DNA from: an uncultured Clostridia bacterium
GTDB lineage: Bacteria; Bacillota; Clostridia; Christensenellales; Borkfalkiaceae
Assembly (NCBI GenBank): GCA_947624215.1
Contig: CANQJJ010000002.1
Span: forward strand, 1-64,000
Direction: 5' to 3'
DNA length: 64,000 bases
Positions 53,653 through 55,404 of the stretch are shown in pieces. The notes beneath the pieces are model-generated. The model ran no database searches and had not been told where the DNA came from. It saw only the letters and a list, made by a program, of their open reading frames with translations. Position 1 is the stretch's first letter, and each line of letters starts with the position of its first letter. Made by a program: the position numbers and the translations under genes.

Positions 53653-54182
53653 GAAAAGCTCCTTTCGAGCATATAGATCTTGGTCCTGCCGTAACTCCTC
53701 GCATCGGCCATCTTCCACCCCTCGGGCGCACTCTCCTCCCGTTCGCTTTCGAGGATCAAAAGCCCGCCTCTTTTGAGAAGCCCGCGCTCCGAGACAAGAC
53801 GGCATATCTCTGCCGCATAGTCCTCCCGGTACGGCGGGTCGGCGAAGATGAGGTCAAATTCTCCCGATACGGTCTTGAGGCAGGTGCGGAAGTCCAAAGT
53901 ATAGACCTTGCCCTCCTCTTTGACGGCGGCAAGATTTTTTTTGAGCACGGCAACGCTGTCCCTCGAACTGTCATTGAAGACGGCCTCCGCCGCCCCCCGG
54001 GAGAGTGCCTCGATGCCGAGCGCGCCGCTCCCCGCAAAGAGATCGAGCACTCTCGCCCCCGCAAGTCGCAAAGACAAGATCTGGAAGAACGATTCCTTGA
54101 CGCGGTCGGAAGTGGGACGGATCTCCATCCCTTGGGACACGATCAGCGTTCTGCCGCGATGCTTCCCCGCGATGATCCTCAC
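53649..54182 (-). CDS. rsmD: 16S rRNA (guanine966-N2)-methyltransferase
   Basis: VRIIAGKHRGRTL..RPTSDRVKESFFQIL, VLDLFAGSGALGIEALSRGA, DLIFADPPY; GTG start. Confidence 0.94.
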   Translation of the reverse strand: MRIIAGKHRGRTLIVSQGMEIRPTSDRVKESFFQILSLRLAGARVLDLFAGSGALGIEALSRGAAEAVFNDSSRDSVAVLKKNLAAVKEEGKVYTLDFRTCLKTVSGEFDLIFADPPYREDYAAEICRLVSERGLLKRGGLLILESEREESAPEGWKMADARSYGRTKIYMLERSFS

Positions 54183-54904
54183 TGCCCTACCTTCTTTTTG
54201 GCCTTTTGGCCCGCTTCCTCTACCTGTCTGTCGTGCTCTGCGGCACGCGCACGGTCGCGCGCTTCCGCGTAGCCGCCGACGATATAGAAGATGCCGCTGA
54301 CGATGATGGGCAACAATGACACGAGCAGGGACCAATACATGCTGACGGAGAGGCCGACGGTCTCCCCGCCCGCACCGCCCGTGCCGAAGAACGTGATGGG
54401 TATGATCGCCCAACCCGCAAACATCATGAATGCGTATTGGACGTATCCCCAGGCCTGGCTGACCGCGATGGAGCCTGCAATGGTGCCGAGGATGATGGCG
54501 GGAAGAGCGACGTAGAAACCGATCAAAAAGCCCTTCCAGACGCGGTATTCGCGCTCGGGACGGTGTCCCCCGCCCGACTGTATGCCGAAGGCAATGTTCT
54601 TACGGTGCAATTGGCCCGCGATGTAGGAGCCGTAGTGCAATTTGCCCGTGTGGAAGAGAAGATGCCCGTTGAAGAACGCCCCGCCTGCGATACAGAGCAA
54701 ACAGAGAACGATCTCGATGACGCTGTTTTCATCCGGCACGATGGTCTGGCATGTGAGCGCCAGGAGGCTCATGAAGAGATACATGAGGTACGGCGTGACC
54801 GAGCGGCGCAAACATTCCCCTTGGATACGCCAAAAATACTGCCATTTTGTCGGATTGGAGTAATCCTTTTTCTTTTTTTTCTTTTTGGGTGCTTCGTTCA
54901 ACAT
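54179..54904 (-). CDS. Uncharacterised multi-pass membrane protein
   Basis: MLNEAPKKKKKKKDYSNPTKWQYF...; own promoter; overlaps rsmD. Confidence 0.8.
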   Translation of the reverse strand: MLNEAPKKKKKKKDYSNPTKWQYFWRIQGECLRRSVTPYLMYLFMSLLALTCQTIVPDENSVIEIVLCLLCIAGGAFFNGHLLFHTGKLHYGSYIAGQLHRKNIAFGIQSGGGHRPEREYRVWKGFLIGFYVALPAIILGTIAGSIAVSQAWGYVQYAFMMFAGWAIIPITFFGTGGAGGETVGLSVSMYWSLLVSLLPIIVSGIFYIVGGYAEARDRARAAEHDRQVEEAGQKAKKKVGQ

Positions 54905-55076: not shown

Positions 55077-55174
55077 AAAAAAAGAAAGTGCCCGCAAATC
55101 GTAAGAACGATTCCATTGTACGGGGCTACAAGGACGAGAGCGGGAAACCGCCGACACCGAGCCAAACACTTTCT
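55077..55174 (-). ncRNA. Candidate small RNA 1 (~98 nt): closed multibranch fold ending in a U-run
   Basis: Own promoter at 55181-55209; terminal stem AGAAAGUG/CACUUUCU; three internal hairpins; U7 tail. Confidence 0.75.
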
Positions 55175-55180
55175 ATGTTC

Positions 55181-55209
55181 ATGATAACCCAACGGACGGG
55201 AGATGTCAA
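55181..55209 (-). promoter_or_regulatory. Promoter of candidate small RNA 1 (TTGACA-17-TATCAT)
   Basis: Minus strand TTGACA TCTCCCGTCCGTTGGGT TATCAT, predicted +1 at A55174. Confidence 0.82.
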
Positions 55210-55259: not shown

Positions 55260-55369
55260 AAAAAAATAACAGCGGCTTATTAGGTCGCTGTCGGTGGACT
55301 TATTACCACTCGCCGCTGGTTTAAGCGGCGCTTACTTGCGGGGCGCTCTACTACCTTACCGCGTTCAGT
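55260..55369 (-). ncRNA. Candidate small RNA 2 (~110 nt) ending in an intrinsic terminator
   Basis: Own promoter at 55376-55404; hairpins CGCCGCU/AGCGGCG, GUGG/CCAC, ACAGCG/CGCUGU then UAUUUUUUU. Confidence 0.75.
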
Positions 55370-55375
55370 GATCAA

Positions 55376-55404
55376 AGTATATCTCATTGCGCGGCAAAAA
55401 TCAA
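55376..55404 (-). promoter_or_regulatory. Promoter of candidate small RNA 2 (TTGATT-17-TATACT)
   Basis: Minus strand TTGATT TTTGCCGCGCAATGAGA TATACT. Confidence 0.8.

Follow-up and report, generated by a model that had tools for sequence, protein, structure and literature searches.

RNA-1 lies between alr and a conserved ORF

The window analyzed here is a stretch of 64,000 nucleotides from the genome of an uncultured Clostridia bacterium. On its minus strand, between alr and a 241-aa open reading frame (ORF241), lies a predicted 98-nt small RNA gene, hereafter RNA-1 (55077..55174), which together with its promoter forms a unit that spans positions 55209-55077. The sequence, strand and coordinates are those of candidate small RNA 1 in an earlier, sequence-only reading of this DNA. 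The -35 hexamer TTGACA (55204..55209) and the -10 hexamer TATCAT (55181..55186) are separated by a 17-nt spacer, and the predicted +1 (55174) coincides with the 5'-most nucleotide of the closing stem P1. This promoter had been called perfect; the hexamers and the spacer stand, and the perfect match does not, since 11 of the 12 bases fit the sigma-70 consensus, which makes the promoter strong but not perfect. At the opposite end, a T7 tract (55077..55083, minus strand) is the predicted tail of an intrinsic terminator, and P1 runs straight into it, as had been noted before. In the 1.2 kb scanned, there are four promoter-like sites compared to 0.9 expected from shuffles.

Across 34 copies of RNA-1, the mean pairwise identity is 94% in the -35 hexamer, 87% in the -10 hexamer and 34% in the 17-nt spacer, and all 34 copies end with a T-tract. 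Preserved hexamers, a near-random spacer and a T-tract together are what one expects from a functional promoter and terminator rather than from a conserved DNA block. A protein-coding reading of RNA-1 was rejected because the copies differ in length by 1 nt and by 4 nt, which breaks every frame. RNA-1 is also unlikely to be the 5' UTR of the 241-aa ORF because, in agreement with the sequence-only reading, this ORF has a separate promoter (TTGACA-17-TATACT at 54969-54941), and the gene pair occurs without RNA-1 in relatives. The 241-aa protein itself (54179-54904, minus strand) has no Pfam family, is present in 82 of the 103 genus genomes and adjoins alr in nearly all loci examined.

The predicted fold is supported by covariation

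The 98-nt sequence is predicted to fold at -32.6 kcal/mol (z = -3.15, with one of 200 shuffles equally good). The structure supported by covariation is a three-way junction of P1, P2 and P3. P1, which closes the RNA and doubles as the terminator stem, pairs the 5' strand AGAAAGUG (55167..55174) with the 3' strand CACUUUCU (55083..55090). This is the 8-bp stem that had been proposed to join the two ends; seven of its eight pairs are changed on both sides, and 99.6% of the alignment cells are paired. Arm P2 (55124..55163) comprises GGCU...AGCC, an internal GGUGU/UCGUCC element and a GCGG/CCGC tip that is variable among the copies, and shows changes on both sides in 10 of 13 pairs. Arm P3 (55092..55123), with an A-rich 5' bulge, comes in two versions, type B (CCACG...CGUGG) and type A (CCCG...CGGG). 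The window carries type A, in which the bulge reads UACAAUG and the tip is formed by AAUCGU/ACGAUU; helices 3 and 4, in this arm, covary. Among the close copies from the genus, the 5' half (AGAAAGUGUUUGGCUCGGUGUCRGCGG...CCGCUCUCGUCCUUGUAGCCCC) is nearly unchanged, like the promoter hexamers, and the 3' arm appears in its two versions, despite the differing flanks. Among the three hairpins named originally, GCGG-UUUC-CCGC and AAUCGU-UCUU-ACGAUU are supported, whereas UUGUA-GCCCCG-UACAA is not conserved: UACAA is absent from most relatives, this hairpin could form in type A copies only, and it conflicts with the covarying P2, where AGCC pairs with the upstream GGCU.

The covariance model R2 yielded an alignment of 36 matches (A8), in which 98.2% of the base-pair cells are standard pairs and 23 of the 28 pairs are changed on both sides. 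Covariation reaches a score of 0.320 compared to 0.113 +/- 0.008 for shuffles, which ignore relatedness (0 of 500 as high), and sliding the pairing partners abolishes the signal. A8 had been built to match the structure, so we also counted such changes in 16 copies aligned with MAFFT by sequence alone. Here, 10 of 29 pairs are changed on both sides, and the covariation, located mostly in P1 and P2, is again reached by 0 of 500 shuffles that ignore relatedness. Covariance across homologs had been named as a check in the sequence-only reading, and compensatory changes are found in both alignments. Among the non-Watson-Crick cells on the RNA strand, G-U outnumbers A-C by 46 to 4, mostly due to one invariant U-G pair, and by 17 to 4 when that pair is removed (one A8 row, a short partial match, was left out of the count); this excess fits selection on the RNA-1 strand. 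By every computational test available, RNA-1 is a novel, independently encoded, structured sRNA gene with its own promoter and terminator; the predicted transcript would be ~98 nt long.

A new RNA family with a sporadic distribution

No Rfam 15 family matches anywhere in the window at the gathering threshold, and none matches RNA-1 at a relaxed threshold with E values up to 10. The novelty of RNA-1 and the lack of an SRP, 6S, tmRNA or RNase P signature, both claimed from the sequence with Rfam as the proposed check, are borne out. No tRNA or tmRNA was found near RNA-1.

Close copies were detected by DNA search in 8 of the 103 genus genomes, including that of the window. The covariance model R1 extended this set to 12 of 103 genus genomes and identified RNA-1 in 23 of 399 family genomes, in 4 of 18 genera. 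A class-level scan of 388 genomes recovered the window genome and one congener only. Named genomes were scanned with a pattern and then with the RNA model. Most of the matches listed looked like chance; those from high-GC Actinobacteria, Methylobacterium and similar organisms were set aside by title, unscored, and the other listed matches were scored with the model. Among the matches listed, RNA-1 is present in Candidatus Gallimonas merdae, Candidatus Coproplasma excrementipullorum, other gut Clostridia (from rabbit, deer and others) and uncultured rabbit-gut Bacilli, some of which carry two or three tandem copies. Neither INPHARED nor, in a pattern search, IMG/VR yielded any relatives.

RNA-1 is associated with inovirus-like prophages and a basic protein

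Rep, Zot-like or pIII-like genes are located near RNA-1 at 12 loci. The Rep beside RNA-1 in G033 is of the gpII type (PF23343 REP_ORF2-G2P, E = 3e-10). Other neighbors are large membrane ATPases with Walker A motifs, which appear Zot-like by inspection, and secreted proteins that were labeled pIII-like, also by inspection; a curated family supports Rep only. A gpII-type Rep and a Zot-type ATPase (the latter label by inspection), the pair by which an inovirus-like prophage was recognized, are thus both found near RNA-1. In these phages, RNA-1 is oriented opposite to the phage genes and occupies the gap that follows one phage gene and precedes the leader of the next or rep; in G148, G191, G033 and G172, it is just upstream of rep. 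RNA-1 is not a host housekeeping gene and is linked to inovirus-like prophages.

Clustering of the ORFs near RNA-1 revealed a protein, cl0, encoded on the opposite strand and ending beside the RNA-1 terminator. This basic, lysine/arginine-rich protein of ~145 aa contains the motif GWAxTKxYPHxxHPAxYR...EYxTFTHS. No relatives of cl0 were found in Pfam, PHROGs or PDB, nor among known phages and viral contigs, no known RNA-binding domain was detected in it, and the predicted structure is unusable (mean pLDDT 38). In each of the 10 family genomes that encode full-length cl0, the gene is accompanied by RNA-1 in a tail-to-tail arrangement, mostly inside inovirus-like prophages. A convergent antisense RNA beside its partner gene, as in type I toxin-antitoxin systems, is accordingly seen in all ten; the partner, however, at ~145 aa and rich in lysine and arginine, is not a small hydrophobic toxin. 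In Bacilli, cl0 and up to three RNA-1 copies (types B, A, B), with types A and B side by side in tandem, are located between ispG and a metallo-beta-lactamase/EF-P cluster, and no other recognized phage genes were found at these loci. RNA-1 and the convergent cl0 probably form a mobile module of inovirus-like (filamentous ssDNA phage) prophages in gut Clostridia.

A 27-33 bp repeat near RNA-1 was considered as an attachment site and rejected, because in the phages it is made up of the leader of the following gene with its ribosome-binding site. A short repeat common to the array and sRNA loci described below corresponds, in the phages, to the leader of the phage gene that comes next. Two near-identical prophages (L196 7719-7954 and L195 8270-8652) are distinguished by a swapped segment immediately upstream of the RNA-1 promoter: one has a 123-aa ORF there, and the other has an additional promoter-like site on the same strand as the RNA. 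At another locus (L211, G291), a promoter, a hairpin-rich stretch and a T-tract lie near broken pieces of cl0, possibly a further sRNA type.

Stand-alone copies of RNA-1

At 14 loci, the window included, RNA-1 stands alone among host genes, without a recognized inovirus gene in the 3.6 to 18 kb searched per locus; likewise, 14 loci have RNA-1 without cl0. No phage genes were found near RNA-1 in the window, and neither an inovirus Rep nor cl0 was found in the window genome. Nearly all relatives examined retain the alr-ORF241 pair, and in the closest relatives of the window (G085 and G091), these genes are separated by a short gap free of RNA-1, an empty site, so that RNA-1 was most simply gained in the window lineage. 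The promoter and RNA of the window are 92% identical to the G034 copy. One genome, G098, combines a type A prophage copy with a stand-alone type B copy. In the single orthologous stand-alone pair, G062/G075, the RNA is identical at 90 of 90 nt, compared to 72% and 70% (~71%) in the alignable flanks; this identity, although seen in one pair only, argues against neutral relics. We consider it highly likely that RNA-1 represents a genuine, hitherto uncatalogued family of structured sRNAs from inovirus-like elements and that the window harbors a stand-alone copy.

Additional sRNA families and arrays

Directly upstream of RNA-1, on the same strand, the window contains a second candidate sRNA, RNA-X (55260..55404), with the promoter TTGATT-17-TATACT and a terminator that consists of the loop CCUAAUAAG followed by T7. 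Among the 103 genus genomes, homologs were detected in G025 and G048 only. In G025 (L187 4250-5400, minus strand), six sRNA-like genes are packed in one direction within ~1.2 kb, and this array includes RNA-1, RNA-X, an RNA-X-like RNA (W) and two copies of RNA-Z. It contains eight promoter-like sites, seven of them on the sRNA strand, compared to 1.6 expected. RNA-Z (L187 4510-4838, minus strand; L254-L261) is a highly conserved RNA of ~70 nt (GGGAGCUUGUCAGAGUUGGCGGAUCUCAACCGC...GCUCCC followed by a T-tract) without a match in Rfam; it is found in 11 of the 103 genus genomes, with inovirus-like genes nearby in two or more.

Small basic proteins are encoded convergently with RNA-X and RNA-Z (150 and about 119 aa; L238 1579-2031, minus strand, and L254), in parallel to cl0 beside RNA-1. 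Distant homology of cl0 to these proteins was not supported. Conceivably, gut bacteria acquire sRNA genes of unrelated families, RNA-1, X/W and Z at the least, from inovirus-like phages in the form of promoter-RNA-terminator cassettes, in some cases grouped in arrays such as the six genes of G025. These would constitute a heritable RNA memory of phage types, made up of trans-acting immunity RNAs with swappable specificity arms; we regard this as a speculative scenario that is rather improbable.

Possible functions of RNA-1

Our preferred, albeit tentative, proposal is that RNA-1 silences the phage operon, as an antisense RNA or in trans, and that the hosts have kept it as an immunity or solitary-antitoxin RNA. 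Under this scenario, constitutive transcription of the strand opposite to that of the phage operon would supply the prophage RNA-1, which would lower phage expression by base-pairing with either the mRNA that runs through the RNA-1 locus or a different phage mRNA, with specificity conferred by alleles A and B of arm P3. Prophage RNAs with this mode of action are known, namely the P4 CI RNA (as described in PMC4825925) and SR6 of SPbeta (PMC5848175). If RNA-1 indeed opposes the phage operon in this manner, the stand-alone copies could protect the cell, acting in trans on incoming phages to provide superinfection immunity or as solitary antitoxin-like RNAs. In a search for exact complementarity, the conserved UCGUCCUUGU matched the ribosome-binding site of rep over 10 nt. 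This match was seen in just two near-identical phages and involves a segment that is paired in the predicted fold; it is only suggestive and could be due to chance. The near-invariant 5' half of RNA-1 exceeds what pure antisense action would need and could equally mean protein binding.

Because protein binding fits the 5' half equally well, the main rival of the silencer proposal is an RNA-protein module, in which RNA-1 would be the cognate partner that binds cl0, as an antitoxin-like inhibitor or in a ribonucleoprotein, and the stand-alone RNAs would be anti-addiction or decoy copies. The association of RNA-1 with 10 of 10 intact cl0 genes, the Bacilli loci that retain cl0 and RNA-1 without other recognized phage genes, and the combination of a lysine/arginine-rich protein with a near-invariant internal RNA element all point in this direction. 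However, RNA-1 is kept at 14 loci that lack cl0, the adjacency may reflect mere phage gene order, and cl0 has no known RNA-binding domain, so we consider this module possible but doubtful. It is unlikely that RNA-1 regulates host mRNAs and that hosts keep this phage-borne sRNA as a passenger gene for its benefit to the lysogen. The constitutive-looking promoter, the intact stand-alone copies and the sequence constraint at one such locus (G062/G075) are compatible with a host-directed role, for which there is a precedent in svsR, a prophage sRNA that regulates host maltodextrin genes in E. coli (PMC12803456), but RNA-1 is sporadic (12 of the 103 genus genomes) and its chromosomal sites differ.

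The lack of phage genes around the window copy, in a genome without an inovirus Rep or cl0, would be expected if this copy were an inactive, neutral relic of a decayed prophage. Yet its promoter, structure and terminator are all intact, the promoter and RNA closely match the G034 copy, and another stand-alone copy appears to be constrained (G062/G075, one pair), which leaves the relic explanation with a low probability; since intact copies are easier to detect, the number of decayed ones may be underestimated. A phage element that acts at the DNA level, either a complementary-strand origin or a packaging hairpin after the last gene, would fit the position of RNA-1 in the gap after one phage gene and before the next leader or rep, roughly where the Ff phages have origin and packaging elements, but is very improbable given the conserved promoter hexamers around a near-random spacer, the predicted +1 at the first stem base, the G-U over A-C excess on the RNA strand (though mostly from one invariant pair) and the intact stand-alone copies.

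With RNA-1, the inovirus-like elements of uncultured gut Clostridia, an almost unexplored group of phages, gain a structured, covarying RNA family that is linked to a conserved protein, cl0, to which family searches assign no function. The intact stand-alone copies and the mixed sRNA arrays raise the question whether bacteria keep phage-derived RNAs against the same phages.

Comparison with known systems

The silencer proposed here resembles the P4 CI RNA in that a small RNA made by the prophage would turn off phage genes and thereby act in trans against related phages. The CI RNA is processed from a longer transcript and pairs with two flanking sequences (as described in PMC4825925). RNA-1 differs in having its own promoter and terminator and shares no sequence or Rfam match with the CI RNA, and no flanking target repeats of the kind that CI RNA has were found next to it.

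Among type I antitoxin RNAs, RatA and SR6 of Bacillus prophages are similar to RNA-1 in being ~100 nt long, prophage-borne and tail-to-tail with a small gene; like RNA-1, SR6 of the prophage SPbeta lies between two genes (PMC5848175). In contrast to the small hydrophobic peptides of these systems, the RNA-1 partner cl0 is a basic protein of ~145 aa, and RNA-1 barely overlaps the ORF and widely occurs without cl0.

The svsR RNA of E. coli (NC-SV) is a prophage-encoded sRNA that limits phage infection (PMC12803456), which is similar to the role proposed for RNA-1. The svsR RNA is set apart by its lambdoid prophage, its different host and its action via host maltodextrin genes. The Xanthomonas filamentous phage cf possesses an RNA immunity determinant, cM1. 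As a lead by description only, cM1 would be the nearest functional precedent for RNA-1.
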